Below are positions 562 to 27,589 of a stretch of 27,589 nucleotides of DNA, in pieces. The notes beneath the pieces are model-generated. The model saw nothing but the letters and a program-made list of their open reading frames with translations. It ran no database searches and was not told where the DNA came from. The translations under genes and the position numbers were made by a program. The DNA comes from a virus, in IMG/VR virus record IMGVR_UViG_3300006790_000094, positions 1 through 27,589 of that record; one strand, 5' to 3'. Each line of letters begins with the position of its first letter. Position 1 is the first letter of the stretch.

Positions 562-3500
562 ATGAAATTTGCACACATAGCTGATACACATATTAGAAAT
601 TTGAAGTATCACAAAGAATATAGAGCAGTTTTCCAAGAGCTTTATAAAAATTTAAGAGAGGAGAAGCCTGATTATATTATCCATTGTGGTGATATTGCGC
701 ACACAAAGACTCAGATTTCTCCTGAGTTTGTTGAGATGTGCTCAAGCTTCTTGTCAAACTTGGCTGATATTGCTCCTACATATGTAATTTTGGGTAATCA
801 TGACGGAAATCTTAAGAATTCTAGTCGTCAAGATGCATTAACACCTATTGCTGACGCATTAAGCCATCCAAACTTATATTTACTTAAAAACTCAGGAGAA
901 ACTAAATTAGATGATGAATTTACTATTAACGTCCTTTCAGTTTTTGATCGAGATAACTGGCAGAATCCCACCTGCAACGAGCGAATTAATATTGCTTTGT
1001 ATCATGGCGCGATTAGCGGCATAAAAACTGATACTGGCTGGACAATGGAGCATGGCGAAGATGACATTGATATTTTTAATAATTTTGATTATGGTTTTCT
1101 TGGAGATATACACAAAACCAATCAATCCCTCGACAAAGCGGGAAAAATACGCTATCCGGGTTCGACAGTACAGCAAAACCACGGGGAAACGAACGACAAG
1201 GGTTTTCTAATTTGGGATATCCAAGATAAAGATACGTTTGAATGTAGGCATATAATTCTACGTAATCCTAAACCTTTTATTACTATTAGGCTGACACCTA
1301 AGGGAAGGCTGCCTAATAAGCTTGAAGTGCAAAAAAATGCAAGATTACGGCTTATTTCTGAGAATAATTTGCCTTTAGACGTTGTCCGACGCGCGGTTGA
1401 TGTAGCTAAGGTGCGATTTAAGCCTGAAGCAATCACTTATTTAAATAAATCTGCCGGCGATAGAGGGTCTGTTGAGGAGCTAACAAATGGATTAATTCAA
1501 GAGGACCTCCGCGACATTGCTGTGCAGGAAGAATTTATTGATGAGTATCTAAAAGACTACCAACCCAGTGATGATGCACTTAAGCAAGTATTCGACATGA
1601 ATAGAAAATTTAATGCTATCGTTGAGGACGAAGAAGACGTAAGGCGTAATATTAACTGGAAGCTTAAGAAAGTTGAATGGGACAATCTTTTTAATTATGG
1701 AGAGTCAAATTGCATTGACTTTTCTAAAATGGAGGGGATTGTTGGTATTCTAGGAAAAAACTTTTCTGGTAAATCTAGTATTATTGATAGTATTTTATAT
1801 ACAGTATACAATACAACATCTAAAAATAACAGAAAAAACTTTAATCTTATTAATCAAAATGAAGATTGGTGCCGTGGGTATGTTGAGATTGATATTGGCA
1901 CTAAGACCTACAGCATTGAAAGAAAAAGCACTAAATACGTTAAAAAGCTAAAAGGTAAAGAAACAGATGAAGCAAAGACCGATGTAGAGTTTAATGTATA
2001 TGATAATGCAACCAGTGTTAGTACCAGCCTTAATGGTATTACCAGGATGCAGACTGATAAAAACATTCGCAAGATCTTTGGCACTATTGAAGATTTTCTT
2101 ACAACATCAATGGCTAGCCAGTTAGAGTCTTTGTCTTACATTAATGAAGGCTCAACAAGAAGAAAAGAAATATTAGCAAAATTTCTTGACTTAGAGATTT
2201 TCGAGAGAAAGTTTAAATTAGCAAAAGACGAGTCTGGTGATCTTAAAGGTGCGATTAGAAAGATGTCTGATCGTAATTTTGAAGAAGAAATAAAAGAATC
2301 CAACGCCGAATTAGCTAGAGTTCAAACAAAGCTTTTAAATAGACAAAGATTAAATGAAGAGAGCGTTATGGCTCTGCAAGGCCACAAAGATTCTTTGAAT
2401 ATTATACATGATCAAATTAGATCTATTCCAGAGGAGATGATTGATATTAAGCAAGTGTTAGGCAGACTTAAAACTGTTAAGAGTGAAGCTGCAAAAATAG
2501 AAATCAATCTTGAAAAGAAAAAAGAGAGGATGATTGGTGAAAGAGAACTTTTACAGAAAATTGAGAACTTTGTTGATGGCTTCGACATTGAAGACATTAA
2601 TAGTAAAAAACAAATTGCAAGTGAATTTGTACAGAGGCTGCAGGAAATTGAAGACAAAATTACAGAGCATGAGTCTAAAAAGCAAATAATTGAGAAGAAA
2701 ATTGAATTATTAAAGTCTGCTCCGTGCAGTCATAAACTTCAAGAAAAATGTCACTTTGTTTCTGATGCTAGATATGCGATTGATGATACAAATAGAGTTA
2801 AAATTGGGTTAAATCAGCTTAGTTTGAACAAAATCACAATTGCAAAGAAACTAGATGAAATGAATGTTAATAAATTAGATGAATATTCCAACAAATATTT
2901 GCTTCTACAAGAAAGAGGTGTTGCAATTAGGAATGAAGTATCAAGTTTAAAGATTGACATTGAGAAAGATAAGATGAAACTGCTCAAGGCTAACTCTCTT
3001 CTAGAGAATCTAGAGGAAAAAGAGAAGCTGTATGAAGATAATAAAGAAGTCATTGAGAATTTAGAGCAACTTGAAGAGCAAAAAGCTGAATTATCAGAGA
3101 ACATAGACAATTTAGAGAGTGAGATACAAACACAAAAAGCTGAATTAATTGATTTGTATACTTCAGTTGGTCGCTTTGAACAAAAAAATACTGAATTGAT
3201 TGCGCAAAGAGATAACTATGAAGATATGCAGCAAGAGTATACAACTGCTGATTTATTTATGCGCTGTATGCATGCAAATGGTATTTCATACGATATTATT
3301 AAGAAGCGTCTTCCCCTTATCAATGACGAGATCTCTAAAATTTTAACTAATATTGTTGAGTTTGAAGTCTTTTTTGAGAACGATGATAAAAAACTTGACA
3401 TCTTAATTAAGCATCCGAGTCATGATGCGCGCCCTATTGAGATGGGCTCCGGAGCAGAGAAGACTATTGCTGCCATGGCCATTCGTTTAGCTCTTTTGAA

Positions 3501-3717
3501 TGTCTCCACCCTTCCAAAAGGTGATGTATTTATTCTTGATGAGCCAGGCACTGCATTAGATGCAGATAATATGGAAGGCTTTATTAGAATTCTTGATATG
3601 ATTAAGACGCAATTTAAAACTGTGCTTTTAATATCACACTTGGATTCATTAAAAGATATTGTTGATAGTCAAATAATTATTGAAAAGTTAGAAGGTAAGG
3701 CATATGTCAATGAATAG
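562..3717 (+). CDS. 46/47: Fused recombination nuclease-ATPase (gp47-gp46, Mre11-Rad50/SbcD-SbcC type)
   Basis: This 1051-aa protein joins two functions that T4 encodes in adjacent genes 47 (339 aa) and 46 (560 aa). Residues 1 to about 340 are an Mre11-type metallophosphatase: D8 and H10 in HIADTHI, D44 in HCGDIAH, N79/H80/D81 in LGNHDG, H148 in ALYHG, and D182/H184 in GDIH. From about residue 364 the protein becomes a Rad50-type ATPase. It has Walker A GKNFSGKSS at 398-406, a Q-loop glutamine near 520, long charged coiled coils at about 560-890, signature MGSGAEK at 961-967, Walker B VFILDEP at 989-995, D-loop ALDAD and H-loop ISH. The expected role is resection of DNA ends for recombination-dependent replication and host DNA breakdown. 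At the coiled-coil apex the cysteines are C722 and C730 (CX7C) rather than the usual CXXC zinc hook. There is no stop or internal restart at the junction. Only a weak AGG lies upstream of the start. Confidence 0.93.
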   Translation: MKFAHIADTHIRNLKYHKEYRAVFQELYKNLREEKPDYIIHCGDIAHTKTQISPEFVEMCSSFLSNLADIAPTYVILGNHDGNLKNSSRQDALTPIADALSHPNLYLLKNSGETKLDDEFTINVLSVFDRDNWQNPTCNERINIALYHGAISGIKTDTGWTMEHGEDDIDIFNNFDYGFLGDIHKTNQSLDKAGKIRYPGSTVQQNHGETNDKGFLIWDIQDKDTFECRHIILRNPKPFITIRLTPKGRLPNKLEVQKNARLRLISENNLPLDVVRRAVDVAKVRFKPEAITYLNKSAGDRGSVEELTNGLIQEDLRDIAVQEEFIDEYLKDYQPSDDALKQVFDMNRKFNAIVEDEEDVRRNINWKLKKVEWDNLFNYGESNCIDFSKMEGIVGILGKNFSGKSSIIDSILYTVYNTTSKNNRKNFNLINQNEDWCRGYVEIDIGTKTYSIERKSTKYVKKLKGKETDEAKTDVEFNVYDNATSVSTSLNGITRMQTDKNIRKIFGTIEDFLTTSMASQLESLSYINEGSTRRKEILAKFLDLEIFERKFKLAKDESGDLKGAIRKMSDRNFEEEIKESNAELARVQTKLLNRQRLNEESVMALQGHKDSLNIIHDQIRSIPEEMIDIKQVLGRLKTVKSEAAKIEINLEKKKERMIGERELLQKIENFVDGFDIEDINSKKQIASEFVQRLQEIEDKITEHESKKQIIEKKIELLKSAPCSHKLQEKCHFVSDARYAIDDTNRVKIGLNQLSLNKITIAKKLDEMNVNKLDEYSNKYLLLQERGVAIRNEVSSLKIDIEKDKMKLLKANSLLENLEEKEKLYEDNKEVIENLEQLEEQKAELSENIDNLESEIQTQKAELIDLYTSVGRFEQKNTELIAQRDNYEDMQQEYTTADLFMRCMHANGISYDIIKKRLPLINDEISKILTNIVEFEVFFENDDKKLDILIKHPSHDARPIEMGSGAEKTIAAMAIRLALLNVSTLPKGDVFILDEPGTALDADNMEGFIRILDMIKTQFKTVLLISHLDSLKDIVDSQIIIEKLEGKAYVNE

Positions 3718-13416: not shown

Positions 13417-15612
13417 ATGCCAACAGCGTCAGGAAGTTTAGCATTTTTAGGAGCAGCGAGATTCCAAGGTTATTGGGATGCTACAACTAATTCAGCTACC
13501 GGTTCAGGTTTACCTGGCCAAAAGCTGAATGGTGTTGTTAATGGGTTATTTTCTACTGGAAGCTCCTCTAACGCTGGTGGCTACGCAAATGCAACCGGCC
13601 TAACCGCCTCAATAGGTGATTATTGGCAGGTCACAGGATCAGGTACACACAATGTAGATGGCTCAACATCATGGGTGCTTAATGATTGGTGCGTATATTC
13701 TGGTTCAGCTGGGTCCTCAGGCAATTGGTCTAGGCTTTCATTTGATGATACAATTGCATCTATTGTTTTAGGCGATTTATCCGCTAGTTCTTTTCATATT
13801 GGCAGTACAGCAAATGACAAGCATGTAATATTTGCTACAGGGTCCGTTCATAGCGGCTCTAGTAATTTTACTTTTGATTATACAAATAATTTATTAGCAG
13901 TTGCTGGAAATATTACTGCTTCGACAAACATTTCAGCTTCAGCTTTTTATGGAGATGGCTCTAATTTAGAAAATGTTGGCGGCGGAGCCATTTCTTCCGT
14001 TACAAACGGTGCTAATGACAGAATTGCCACTTTTTCAGCTGCTAGCACTCTTAATGGAGAAGCTAATTTAACATTTAGCTCAGCAAACTTACTCACCGTT
14101 GCGGGCAATATCACAGCCTCAACAAACATCTCAGCTTCTGCTTTTTACGGAGATGGAGCAAACTTAACAAATCTCCCAATCTCAACTGTTGCAAATGGAG
14201 CGGATAATAGACTAGCAACATTTTCGTCTGCAGATGCTTTAAATGGAGAGGCTAATCTAACATTTGATGGTAGCACGAACTTATTAACAGTTGGTGGTAA
14301 TATAACTGGATCACAATTTTATGGTGGAAATATCTACAATAAGGATGATCCTGATACTTTTATAGATTTTGAAACAGCAAACAATCAAATCAATTTCATG
14401 GCAGGCGGTTTTTTTGTTGCCACGGCCCTCGGCACCGGCGCAAAGAATTTTAAAGTCAATACTTTACTTGATGATGTTGATTTCATAGTTCATGGCGATA
14501 ATACTGCAAACTTAATTTATGCAAATGCAGGCCTAGACAGGGTTGGTATAGTTACCAGCTCTCCCGAGCATATTTTATCAGTTACAGGCACATTGGGTGT
14601 TAGTGGTGACACGACTATTTCTGGATCTTCCTATCTTAAGAACGCAATTGTCACTCCTGGGGCATCTGGAGGCACCGGAATAACAGTTACACATACTGAT
14701 GTTGATCAAAATGGTATTACAATTAATGCCACTAATACAACAACTGGTGGCTCTTTGTTGATTAATCATGATGACGACACAACTGCAGCTGCAGACCGAA
14801 AAACATCTTTTGCAATTGATTTTGATAAAACAGGCGTCCAGGCGCAGTCTACAACTGCTTCCTTTGTTGCTTCAGAGATTATCATGGTTGATTCAGCAAA
14901 TAACCATGCAGGTGGAACAGTTCACATGACTGGATCTACGATATTTGTTACTTCCTCGCATGTTGGTGGCTTAAATACAACAAACACAGGCTTGAGAGTT
15001 ATAACTCAAGGTGCTGATACAAACTACGACGCACTTTTCTTAGGTGGTAATGTAGGTATTGGAGATTCGGCTCCGCTTACAAAATTGTCAGTTGTTGCTA
15101 ACTCACCCAACAACACTGCATTGTTTGTTAGAAATGATGGTAATGATGCAAACAGAAATGGTATATTTATTTCGTGCGGCAAAGATGCTCCTGGAACAAA
15201 TGGCGATATTATTTGGCTTCTTTTGGCTGATGGAGACAGTGATGGATCCAGTGGCGTTATCTCAAGAATTAGGTATGATACAGGCGGCGCCGGCGCTGTA
15301 TTAGAGTCTGCTTCAGATAAGAGAATTAAAACTGATATTAAGCCCTCAGAGGTCAATGCTTTAGAAATATTAAATAATATTCCTCTTTCAGAATTCAGAA
15401 TGGCCAAGAAGAATAATCCAGTTGGCGAACTCAATAGAGTTGGCTTTGTTGCACAAGATTGTGAAGAAGCTTGGCCGGAAATGGTTAGTGAGATGGAGGA
15501 CAGTGACTATGCACATAAAATTAAAACTGTCGCCCCAGCAACTTTAATACCTGTTTTAGTCAAAGCTGTGCAAGAATTATCAGCTGAAATAGAGGCTCTT
15601 AAGAACAAGTAG
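13417..15612 (+). CDS. Fibre or spike protein with C-terminal S74 self-cleaving chaperone
   Basis: This 731-aa protein has a G/S/T/N-rich body and a C-terminal intramolecular chaperone of the peptidase S74 (endosialidase-tail) type. The chaperone begins at about S633 in ESASDKRIKTDIK, continues through LNRVGFVAQDCEEAWPEMV and ends in a helix PVLVKAVQELSAEIEALKN. In this family the domain trimerises the fibre, then cuts itself off just before the SD pair, here between A632 and S633. The N-terminal 110 residues hold GYWDATTNS and a tryptophan-rich stretch that may attach to the virion. The middle has about 65-residue repeats of GNITASTNISASAFYGDG. The gene precedes the scaffold gene, an unusual place for a fibre. 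Receptor or surface-glycan binding is the expected role. Confidence 0.85.
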   Translation: MPTASGSLAFLGAARFQGYWDATTNSATGSGLPGQKLNGVVNGLFSTGSSSNAGGYANATGLTASIGDYWQVTGSGTHNVDGSTSWVLNDWCVYSGSAGSSGNWSRLSFDDTIASIVLGDLSASSFHIGSTANDKHVIFATGSVHSGSSNFTFDYTNNLLAVAGNITASTNISASAFYGDGSNLENVGGGAISSVTNGANDRIATFSAASTLNGEANLTFSSANLLTVAGNITASTNISASAFYGDGANLTNLPISTVANGADNRLATFSSADALNGEANLTFDGSTNLLTVGGNITGSQFYGGNIYNKDDPDTFIDFETANNQINFMAGGFFVATALGTGAKNFKVNTLLDDVDFIVHGDNTANLIYANAGLDRVGIVTSSPEHILSVTGTLGVSGDTTISGSSYLKNAIVTPGASGGTGITVTHTDVDQNGITINATNTTTGGSLLINHDDDTTAAADRKTSFAIDFDKTGVQAQSTTASFVASEIIMVDSANNHAGGTVHMTGSTIFVTSSHVGGLNTTNTGLRVITQGADTNYDALFLGGNVGIGDSAPLTKLSVVANSPNNTALFVRNDGNDANRNGIFISCGKDAPGTNGDIIWLLLADGDSDGSSGVISRIRYDTGGAGAVLESASDKRIKTDIKPSEVNALEILNNIPLSEFRMAKKNNPVGELNRVGFVAQDCEEAWPEMVSEMEDSDYAHKIKTVAPATLIPVLVKAVQELSAEIEALKNK
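13891..14330 (+). repeat. Tandem 190-200 bp repeats inside the fibre gene
   Basis: Two near-identical coding units begin at 13891 and 14089, and a third diverged and shortened unit at 14281. Each begins LL(A/T)V(A/G)GNIT; the first two continue ASTNISASAFYGDG. Unit spacing is 198 and 192 bases (66 and 64 residues). DNA identity is clear but synonymous changes are present, so the duplication is not recent. Such repeats are common in fibre shafts and can change length by recombination. Confidence 0.75.
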
Positions 15613-25489: not shown

Positions 25490-26086
25490 ATGGCACAGTT
25501 TTTCAGCCCAGCAGAACAAGGTTTTCAACCGAAAAGAAAGTTTAGATTTTTGATTAATTTTAGTGGTCTAGGCTTGGAAACACAGTACATGGTCACACAG
25601 ACCAAAAAGCCTTCTTTTGAGTTAACAGGTCCAACAGAGCATAGAGTTCTGAACCACACTTTCAAGTTTCCTGGTATTGTAAAGTGGAATGATATTGACG
25701 TCACTTTTATTGACGCTATTGATCCAAACATTGGCTCAAAATTTTACAATGTTTTAAGAAACATGGGCTATATTCAGCCAACTGATTTTAATAATTTAGC
25801 AGCTGGTATTTCTAAGACTCAAGCAAGAGCAGCTTTAGGCGAGATCGTCATTAAGCAGCTTGACGCCGGCGGTTTTGAAGTTACACCAGGTACAGGTGGT
25901 GAGTTACCTACTAACGTTGTTCCAGGTACTAGATATTATGAGGAGTGGTCACTTAAGAATGCTTTCTTGAAGAGTGTTGACTATGGTGATCTTTCTTATG
26001 ATGACGAAGGTTTGGTAAATGTCACAGTTGGTATTACATATGACTATGCTGTTTACAACGCTTACGAGGGCGGCCTTGCCCTTTAA
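25490..26086 (+). CDS. 19: Tail tube protein (gp19-like)
   Basis: This 198-aa protein (T4 gp19 is 163) builds the inner tube through which DNA passes. Family features are the start MAQFFSPAEQGFQPKRKFRF, MVTQTKKPSFELTGPTEHRV and HTFKFPGIVKWNDIDVTFID, then a C-terminal WSLKNAFLKSVDYGDLSYDD followed by NVTVGITYDYAVY. Extra residues around 100-140 (ARAALGEIVIKQLDAGGFEV) form a likely loop or small insertion. ACAGGAG precedes the start. The sheath upstream and the baseplate or assembly gene 15 bases downstream complete a tail operon. Confidence 0.93.
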   Translation: MAQFFSPAEQGFQPKRKFRFLINFSGLGLETQYMVTQTKKPSFELTGPTEHRVLNHTFKFPGIVKWNDIDVTFIDAIDPNIGSKFYNVLRNMGYIQPTDFNNLAAGISKTQARAALGEIVIKQLDAGGFEVTPGTGGELPTNVVPGTRYYEEWSLKNAFLKSVDYGDLSYDDEGLVNVTVGITYDYAVYNAYEGGLAL

Positions 26087-26101: not shown

Positions 26102-26923
26102 ATGAGAAACAACCAGAAGCGCTTAGGTGCACAGCCTCAGGCTGCGGCTTCTAAAGCACCTTCCACTGGTTTAGTTTATGAAGTGCCAACAGAGTTTGTT
26201 GAGCTACCTTCTAGAGGTATGTTCTATCCACCTGATCATGCACTACATAACCAAAAAACTATTGAAATTAAGCTAATGACAACCAAAGAAGAAGATCTTC
26301 TAGCATCAACAGCCTTAATAAAGGAGGGTGTTGTTATTGATCGATTGATGGAGAGTATTGTCGTTGGCGATGTCGACGCTAATGAATTATTGGTTGGCGA
26401 TAGAAATGCGATTATGATTGCAGCTAGAATTTCTGCATATGGAAATGAATATAAGGCTACTAGCCGATGTGGCGTTTGCTTCCACTCACAAGATCATTCA
26501 TTTGACTTGAAAAAAATTAATTATCTAGATTCTTGTTTTGATCAAAAGAAGTTAAAAAAGATGGGAGTTACTTGGAATGCAGAGCAGCAGGTTTATGAGT
26601 ATAAGCTTCCTAAATCTGGTATAAAAGTTGGCATACAAATACCTACTGGCAATGATGAGTTGCTTCAAAATCAAATTGAAGCTAATAGAATAATATCTGA
26701 GACAATGAAAAAATTAATTTATTCAGTTGATGGTCATTGTGAGGAAGACGTCGTTTCAGGATTTGTTGAGAATATGTTAGCATGGGACTCTAGAAGCCTA
26801 AGAGAGGTAATTCCCAATATTTTCCCAAATATTGAATTAAAACAACCAGTAGAGTGTAAAAAATGTGGAAGTGTAGAAGATAGGGAGGTTCCGCTTACTG
26901 CGGAGTTTTTTTGGCCTGGATGA
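26102..26923 (+). CDS. gp26/gp51-type baseplate or tail-assembly protein, zinc-binding
   Basis: This 273-aa protein carries the T4 baseplate-family opening FVELPSRGMFYPPDH and IEIKLMTTKEEDLLASTALI, then a helix with NAIMIAARISAYGNEYKA. Two CXXC pairs, C123/C126 (CGVC) and C252/C255 (CKKC), probably share a zinc ion. It ends TAEFFWPG. In T4, gp26 belongs to the baseplate hub and gp51 acts in hub assembly without being a virion part. Which of the two this resembles cannot be settled here. It lies between the tube gene and a coiled-coil gene that may be the tape measure, the slot usually held by tail assembly chaperones. Its final codons contain a T7 run that could allow a shift into the next frame. 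Confidence 0.8.
   Translation: MRNNQKRLGAQPQAAASKAPSTGLVYEVPTEFVELPSRGMFYPPDHALHNQKTIEIKLMTTKEEDLLASTALIKEGVVIDRLMESIVVGDVDANELLVGDRNAIMIAARISAYGNEYKATSRCGVCFHSQDHSFDLKKINYLDSCFDQKKLKKMGVTWNAEQQVYEYKLPKSGIKVGIQIPTGNDELLQNQIEANRIISETMKKLIYSVDGHCEEDVVSGFVENMLAWDSRSLREVIPNIFPNIELKQPVECKKCGSVEDREVPLTAEFFWPG
26906..26912 (+). promoter_or_regulatory. T7 slippery run, candidate programmed frameshift site
   Basis: TTTTTTT is read GAG TTT TTT TGG in the gp26-like gene, six codons from its stop counting the stop itself. A +1 or -2 shift enters the frame of the 51-aa product, which is open from 26877 to 27083. Just upstream lie a small hairpin (CCGC/GCGG, 26890-26904) and a Shine-Dalgarno-like AGGGAGG (26882-26888). 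Confidence 0.45.
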
Positions 26924-26930
26924 AAAATAT

Positions 26931-27086
26931 ATGGAAAGAGTGTATGAGCACTTTTTTTATATGAAATATTATGGTGGCTGGAGTTTCATTGAGGCCTATA
27001 ATCTTCCAGTTGGACTTCGAATGTGGTTTTTGCGAAAGCTTTCTGATCAGATTGAGAAAGAAAATGAAGCTTTAAGCGGTAATTAA
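26931..27086 (+). CDS. 51-aa tail protein, or frameshifted C-terminal extension of the gp26-like protein
   Basis: From ATG 26931 this frame encodes MERVYEHFFYMKYYGGWSFI, then EAYNLPVGLRMWFLRKLSDQ and a short charged end. The frame is open further upstream to 26877, overlapping the end of the gp26-like gene. The codons just before the ATG read GLDEKY, which looks protein-like. No good Shine-Dalgarno lies 5-10 bases before the ATG, which favours entry by frameshifting at the T7 run over independent initiation. The W-x-F-I-E-A-Y-x-L-P pattern and the position between tube and putative tape-measure genes resemble the second part of phage tail assembly chaperones (the lambda G/GT arrangement). A plain small gene remains possible, as does a homopolymer sequencing error. 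Confidence 0.6.
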   Translation: MERVYEHFFYMKYYGGWSFIEAYNLPVGLRMWFLRKLSDQIEKENEALSGN

Positions 27087-27088
27087 TT

Positions 27089-27120
27089 AAGCCTTGTGTG
27101 GAGCAAGGCTTTATTTTTTT
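27089..27120 (+). terminator. Rho-independent terminator ending the tail operon
   Basis: An 8-bp stem AAGCCTTG/CAAGGCTT with a 7-base loop (TGTGGAG) is followed by TTTATTTTTTT. It lies 2 bases after the stop of the 51-aa frame. A promoter-like element follows 7 bases later. Confidence 0.9.
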
Positions 27121-27127
27121 GTGTAAA

Positions 27128-27158: not shown

Positions 27159-27589
27159 ATGCCGGAAAATGATGACAGTATTGTAGCGTCGACCATTGAA
27201 GCTTTAATTGGTCAAGGCTTGGATGCAGGGAAAATTAAAGAACATACCGAAGAGCTTAAAAAAGCAATTAATGCCACACAAGATTTTACCAGTGCACAAA
27301 AAATTGCTCTGGCAAATAGGCTGGAAATACTTAAATCTCTAGAGGATTCCACGCGCGAGGTGAAGTTGCTTGCCGCGGCTGAGAAAGAGGGAGCCGACGA
27401 AAAGCGTAAGCTTGCAGAAGCTATCAATGCTGCCAAAGAATCGCTTGAAAACTTTCGAAATTCTCAGAGCGCTCACATCATGAGCCTGAAAGAAGAGATT
27501 GGGTTTAATGAAATTAATTTATCTCAGCTTAAAAAGATAGAAAAAATATATGAGTCTGGACTAGGAAAAAAACTACGCGATGAGGCCGA
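27159..27589 (+). CDS. Coiled-coil protein, partial; possible tail tape measure
   Basis: The frame starts at ATG 27159, 10 bases after GGAGG, and is open to the window edge (143 complete codons seen). The product begins MPENDDSIVASTIEALIGQG and continues as a long charged helix (KIKEHTEELKKAINATQDFT, then STREVKLLAAAEKEGADEKR) typical of coiled coil. There is no catalytic motif or membrane span in the visible part. A separately promoted gene after the tube and gp26-like genes, opening with coiled coil, fits a tail tape-measure protein (gp29 in T4) or another large tail protein. The missing end prevents a firm call. Confidence 0.6.
   Translation, partial: MPENDDSIVASTIEALIGQGLDAGKIKEHTEELKKAINATQDFTSAQKIALANRLEILKSLEDSTREVKLLAAAEKEGADEKRKLAEAINAAKESLENFRNSQSAHIMSLKEEIGFNEINLSQLKKIEKIYESGLGKKLRDEA

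Follow-up and report, generated by a model that had tools for sequence, protein, structure and literature searches.

Two tail assembly chaperones, a short TAC-N and an extended TAC-NC, are most probably produced by programmed +1 ribosomal frameshifting at a locus of an uncultured, distant T4-like phage, a reading drawn from comparative sequence evidence to which we give a probability of about 0.84. The same forward slip is very probable in hundreds of relatives. The window, meaning the whole stretch of 27,589 nucleotides analysed here (positions 1 to 27,589 of IMG/VR virus record IMGVR_UViG_3300006790_000094), would carry the chaperone pair of this phage. Most ribosomes would stop at 26921 and release TAC-N, and a minority would slip one base forward at TTT TTT TGG. 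The peptidyl-tRNA-Phe in the P site would move from UUU to the overlapping UUU with UGG waiting in the A site, and the shifted ribosomes would go on to read GGC CTG GAT in the +1 frame, yielding TAC-NC with its additional TAC-C domain. An internal Shine–Dalgarno sequence (GGAGGU), together with a hairpin that refolds next to the E site, would favour the forward shift and hold back −1 slippage. By analogy with the G/GT system of phage lambda, TAC-N would coat the tape measure protein and TAC-NC would recruit the tube protein.

The tail gene cluster and its overlapping frames

The window covers part of the genome of a distant relative of T4. It encodes a T4-type terminase, portal, prohead protease and Gp23 capsid protein, together with a 970-aa tail sheath, a tail tube protein and a gp26/gp51-type protein, and it breaks off within a probable tape measure gene. 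Elsewhere in it, a single 1051-aa ORF (562–3717) joins a calcineurin-like phosphoesterase (gp47/SbcD-like) to an AAA/SMC domain (gp46/SbcC-like), which are two separate genes in T4, and a 731-aa ORF (13417–15612) with a C-terminal Peptidase_S74 chaperone domain lies among the capsid genes, 5′ of Gp23.

All features of the tail locus are on the + strand. TAC-N (26102–26923, 273 aa, the 0 frame) belongs to the T4 gp26/gp51 family of short tail assembly chaperones, matching PF12322 T4_baseplate (E=1.9e-13) and PHROG 150 (E=7e-15). Its 5′ neighbour is a gp19-like tail tube protein (25490–26086; PHROG 4542 tail tube, E=2.4e-23), and the probable tape measure gene begins at 27159, an assignment made by position, its ORF continuing past the window end at 27589. 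A large ORF 3′ of TAC-C in one relative, L016, matches the tape measure family PHROG 167 (E=8e-4), and the downstream gene carries a tape measure annotation in phages immuto and SP-15, which places the chaperone gene between the tail tube and tape measure genes, the latter as identified in relatives. TAC-N of the window clade also contains two conserved CxxC pairs, C123/C126 and C252/C255, suggesting a zinc ribbon.

The 0 frame of 26102–26923 ends in GAG GTT CCG CTT ACT GCG GAG TTT TTT TGG CCT GGA TGA; the T run in it is exactly seven long (26906–26912), and the TGA stop (26921–26923) comes 15 nt past the T that opens the slip site. No stop interrupts the +1 (equivalently −2) frame between 26877 and 27083; it includes SFFGLDEKYMERVYEHFFYMKYYGGWSFIEAYNLPVGLRMWF and is closed by TAA at 27084–27086; from before the slip site to 27083, it translates as FFGLDEKYMERVYEHFFYMKYYGGWSFIEAYNLPVGLRMWFLRKLSDQIEKENEALSGN. 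TAC-C, the C-terminal domain in the +1 frame (FFGLDEKY...), occupies 26907–27083, and its fusion to TAC-N gives a TAC-NC of 327 aa. A preliminary description of this DNA had noted a gp26-like ORF ending at the T run near its stop and an open shifted frame, and both observations are confirmed. An intrinsic-terminator-like hairpin followed by a T tail (27089–27121) lies directly 3′ of the TAC-C stop and 5′ of the probable tape measure gene.

Relatives and invariance of the proposed slip site

The small frame, taken with the residues that precede its ATG, was searched against 2.9 million viral contigs and yielded at least 593 confirmed relatives. The upstream ORF stood in the same +1/−2 relation in 80/80 loci kept from this search, and a version with six T's or an in-frame fusion occurred in none of the 80. 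An independent DNA pattern, TTY TTY TGG, extended the sample to a pooled set of 198 loci, 164 of them non-redundant; the slip site is consequently pattern-defined in part of the data set, with both Phe third positions left free. The same pattern scanned over genome contigs gave one relative and otherwise chance matches, which served as the TTT/TTC background alone. A profile search then added a second clade of 80 further loci, kin to Microcystis phage Mel-JY01 and Flavobacterium phage immuto (n=68 non-redundant), where a TAC-C HMM assigned the domain to the +1 frame 78 times and to the −1 frame once (L404), the remaining locus lying on a cut contig.

A sequencing or assembly artefact, in which a single continuous gene with six T's had gained a base, is a natural first suspicion given that homopolymer errors are common, but the same frame relation recurs in well over 200 contigs from many metagenomes and in the isolates Mel-JY01 and immuto, non-homopolymer variants preserve it and the 0-frame stop is conserved. 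Across the family an artefact is already refuted, and for the locus its probability is next to negligible. The exceptional L404, the only second-clade contig with TTCTTCTGG at the site (around 3180–3400), has TAC-C in the −1 frame and counts against the +1 reading; an assembly indel or a direction-switched lineage are the candidate readings. Rhodothermus phage RM378 has TTTTTTTGG with a +1 continuation whose downstream domain falls below HMM recognition, making it a case of motif and frame, and a scan of viral contigs for RM378 homologues gave no match beyond RM378 itself. TAC-C-like sequence in the +1 frame also occurs without TTTTTTTGG in Listeria LIS04, Streptococcus GXN1 and Bacillus SP-15 (L088, L089 and L348, with weak HMM scores) and in LR756508 (L087), the candidate slip sites of these four being TTTTTTAGT, CCCCGA and TTTCTATTCCC.

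The slip site itself (26906–26914) reads TTYTTTTGG in 164/164 relatives of the window clade. TTTTTTTGG accounts for 149 and TTCTTTTGG for 15, and TTC at the second Phe codon for 0, at a TTC usage of 20% among the Phe codons elsewhere in the same genes. Invariant TTT at this codon has a probability of about 1e-16 at 80% TTT usage, with the sequences treated as independent, and genome background matches to the same DNA pattern have TTC there in 55/117. The first Phe codon varies, being TTC in 15/164 with at least seven changes on the tree. The P-site codon of the second clade is TTT in 67/68 and CTT in 1/68, with T next in all, and its A-site codon is TGG, TAC, TAT or TTC. A P-site codon able to re-pair one base forward (YUU U) is therefore present in 232/232 non-redundant sequences. 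In the window, the P-site tRNA would leave TTT 26909–26911 and re-pair on TTT 26910–26912, with TGG 26912–26914 in the A site. That the A site holds a sense codon (UGG or UAY), and not a stop or an evident hungry codon, counts against the +1 reading.

The preliminary description had left the direction as +1 or −2, and this invariance narrows it to +1, the second Phe codon being always TTT or CTT followed by T and the first free to be TTC. A −2 ribosomal shift as in phage Mu would reach the same final frame, and seven T's do permit P-site re-pairing two bases back, but in TTCTTTTGG relatives the P-site tRNA would then face TCT, a middle-position mismatch, so that the Mu-type re-pairing possible on T7 fails there. 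We favour +1 over −2 because the invariant element is the one that one-base-forward re-pairing (YUU U) requires, not the one that −2 requires, and we regard a −2 shift as quite improbable. The two would differ in product, EFFFGLDEK for −2 instead of EFFGLDEK for +1; the predicted tryptic peptides of the window are EVPLTAEFFGLDEK for the +1 junction, EVPLTAEFFFGLDEK for the −2 junction and EVPLTAEFFWPG for TAC-N.

Could TAC-C instead be translated as a gene of its own, with GGAGGT serving as ribosome site and the start lying either at the internal ATG (26931) or at a point of reinitiation past the TAC-N stop? The ATG is present in the window and in 100/164 relatives, and the GenBank records of immuto and Mel-JY01 annotate small genes of this kind. 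The codon at this position, however, is something other than ATG in 64/164, with at least 27 changes of state along the tree, no ATG, GTG or TTG occurs in the first 14 codons of the frame in 54/164, and the FGLxxxY residues 5′ of the ATG are conserved as protein. Moreover, GGAGGT lies about 41 nt from the ATG, a stop less than 15 nt before the slip closes the frame in 37/198 loci and the constraint sits on the slip codon, all of which makes a separate gene highly improbable. The 0-frame stop falls 12–24 nt past the slip in 164/164 relatives, and the +1-frame GAT codon that often carries the TAC-N stop is conserved; since the stop is kept within 24 nt, both products appear to be selected. The suggestion that the gp26/gp51-type protein would be made in two forms by frameshifting, as a G/GT-like tail chaperone, thus draws strong support from the comparative evidence.

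Selection on the upstream RNA

Just before the T run, the preliminary description had seen an AGGGAGG and a hairpin, and in the window clade both prove to be under strong RNA-level selection. The internal Shine–Dalgarno (SD)-like GGAGGT (26884–26889), its GGAGG inside AGGGAGG (26882–26888), is kept in relatives, GGAGG occurring within 45 nt before the slip in 159/164 of them vs 63/2765 (2.3%) of other 45-nt stretches and lying 6 nt farther upstream in four relatives. The hairpin CCGC-TTACT-GCGG (26891–26903), extendable by a U26890–A26904 pair, lies directly 5′ of the slip site and adjoins the E site. The Glu codon of GGAGGT is GAG in 156/159, against a usage of 40%, and is the top synonymous-conservation column. 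All six top columns of 226 fall within 13 codons ending with the TTT TTT TGG block, and the top columns include, besides this GAG, two codons of the hairpin stem (CCG and GCG) as well as GAC and TTT.

Folding gives a similar picture, the last 18 nt having a mean MFE of −5.42 kcal/mol vs −0.80 ± 0.09 for synonymous shuffles, and none of 18 control positions elsewhere in the gene showed a comparable excess. The hairpin is kept in the TTC variants (TTCTTTTGG; MFE −6.62). Covariation of its closing pair exceeds that of shuffles when relatedness is ignored and is not claimed as support. The second clade (n=68) has the T run and lacks conservation of the hairpin, so that the hairpin and SD are an elaboration of the window clade. 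Downstream of the slip, synonymous conservation indicative of a stimulator is absent beyond the dual-coded overlap, and stability shows a modest excess (−9.6 vs −7.2 kcal/mol, n=60).

A hairpin followed by seven T's is also the right geometry for transcriptional slippage, in which RNA polymerase, aided by the nascent hairpin, would drop one U at T7 and normal translation of the shortened transcript would give the fusion, the loss of one U producing the TAC-NC frame. But natural variants that keep frame and hairpin interrupt the run, TTCTTTTGG (TTCTTTT) in 15/164 relatives and TTTCTTTGG (TTTCTTT) in both immuto and L413, and in the second clade the T run occurs although the hairpin is not conserved. 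Nor do longer runs occur: TTTTTCTGG, with a longer T run, is absent from all relatives, and T8 is avoided, a T preceding T7 in 0/149 compared with 35% T at third positions elsewhere. Stem-loop-mediated slippage would go with an unbroken run, longer runs being tolerated or favoured, and several lineages interrupt the run; we consider this route improbable.

Under +1 ribosomal frameshifting, the SD and hairpin at this locus may have a stimulatory role. In experiments on 70S ribosomes, a hairpin or SD duplex located upstream, next to the E site, stimulated +1 frameshifting and reduced −1 frameshifting (PMC6321510), and the effect is likewise seen in yeast and human cells (PMC3639245). Attenuation of backward slippage by upstream duplexes beside the E site (PMC6321510) also speaks against a −2 shift. 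The SD and the P site are 19 nt apart, a distance that shrinks to about 6 nt with the hairpin closed; this differs from the spacing in the gene for release factor 2 (RF2) and counts against the +1 reading.

Protein family and comparison with known systems

TAC-C of the +1 clade is homologous to the −1-frame TAC-C of P-SSM2, S-PM2, phiM12 and HTVC008M and to the C-terminus of T4 gp51 (hhalign probability against cyanophage TAC-C and the gp51 C-terminus 91%, E=1.1e-6). Cyanophages, HTVC008M and phiM12 encode the domain in the −1 frame, and by eye the same appears to hold for RAS14, MIJ3, Atu_ph07 and LR756511, where HMM scores do not decide the frame; T4 has two genes, a short gp26 and a long in-frame gp51. 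In a tree of the N-terminal domain, which has long branches and leaves RM378 unplaced, LR756508 joins the window clade and the second clade in one group (SH-aLRT 97), from which the cyanophage and jumbo groups are separate. The TAC-N and TAC-C parts of the 327-aa fusion were modelled apart. The AlphaFold model of TAC-N (pLDDT 88.8) resembles the gp26-type proteins of SP-15 and Aeromonas phage 25, matching gp26-type proteins in BFVD with a best TM of 0.76; its top match in the PDB, the HK97 gp13 tail chaperone (2ob9), is weak (E=0.81, prob 0.38). The TAC-C model gave no fold match. DUF6760 was rejected as an identity for TAC-C because its matches are weak (7/9 members, best E=0.004); these matches (window 26910–27083 and relatives) may connect TAC-C with a bacterial family of unknown function.

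We think it reasonably probable, with clearly less confidence than in the frameshift itself, that the locus carries a natural +1 signal of a bacterial virus, made of an internal SD, an E-site hairpin, UUU_U and a sense A-site codon, within a family that has switched shift direction: backward (−1) in cyanophages and in some of the jumbo phages, forward (+1) in far-T4 marine, Flavobacterium and Microcystis phages, and none in T4. Natural variation at one +1 site, sampled in more than 230 non-redundant sequences (164 and 68), shows which bases are free and which are fixed, and the presence of −1 and +1 members, seemingly doing the same job, opens the change of direction to study. The GenBank annotations of the relatives examined here either omit TAC-C and TAC-NC or start them at the wrong place.

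The 2022 study of Vladimirov, Gautam and Davidson is said to have found frameshifting conserved in several T4-like groups, with T4 using genes 26 and 51. The PRFect paper (PMC10885494) and the phage Adele paper (PMC12846349) cite it (PMID 34826709) for T4-like TACs, and the latter also for −1 poly-T slip sites. The idea that descriptions of T4 relatives do not usually include such a system is hence out of date, this study having identified T4-like TACs. These systems share with the window the PF12322 family, the C-terminal domain, a poly-T slip region and short and long forms, but those compared here shift by −1 (cyanophages, HTVC008M and phiM12, with several jumbo phages best read as −1) and T4 uses two genes, whereas the window would shift by +1 with another signal. 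The −1 poly-T class has TAC-C in the −1 frame, which is not where the window has it. Frameshifted chaperones in T4-like phages are thus already known, and as far as the accessible parts of these sources go, the +1 direction and the SD/hairpin signal appear unreported.

The G/GT shift of phage lambda is a −1 shift at GGGAAAG. Lambda has in common with the window a chaperone between the tube and tape measure genes and a 3′-end frameshift that adds a C-terminal domain (Xu, Hendrix & Duda 2004), but the direction differs, −1 in lambda vs a probable +1 in the window, and the likeness is one of gene order and frameshift.

To our knowledge, bacterial-type +1 frameshifting has few well-studied signals, mostly that of RF2. 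Escherichia coli prfB (RF2) likewise has a P-site YUU followed by U (CUU U in immuto and L413) and an internal SD upstream. It differs in having a stop in the A site and the SD 3 nt upstream, whereas the sites compared here have UGG/UAY in the A site, and the window has its SD 19 nt from the P codon with a hairpin in the interval. For tail chaperones, +1 shifts have been put forward in HF1-group haloviruses (PMC7230728) and HSTV-2 (PMC5009743); as presented in the accessible parts of those papers, these share a +1 shift within a pair of tail chaperone genes of a myovirus, with TTT at the site in the HF1 group, and differ in their archaeal hosts and TTT-CGC motif, an SD/hairpin element not being described there. 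A parallel to the upstream element is provided by reporter constructs (PMC6321510, PMC3639245), where an E-site hairpin promotes +1 and attenuates −1 shifting; these were designed, whereas the window clade has a naturally selected and conserved arrangement of upstream hairpin and SD that matches what they studied.
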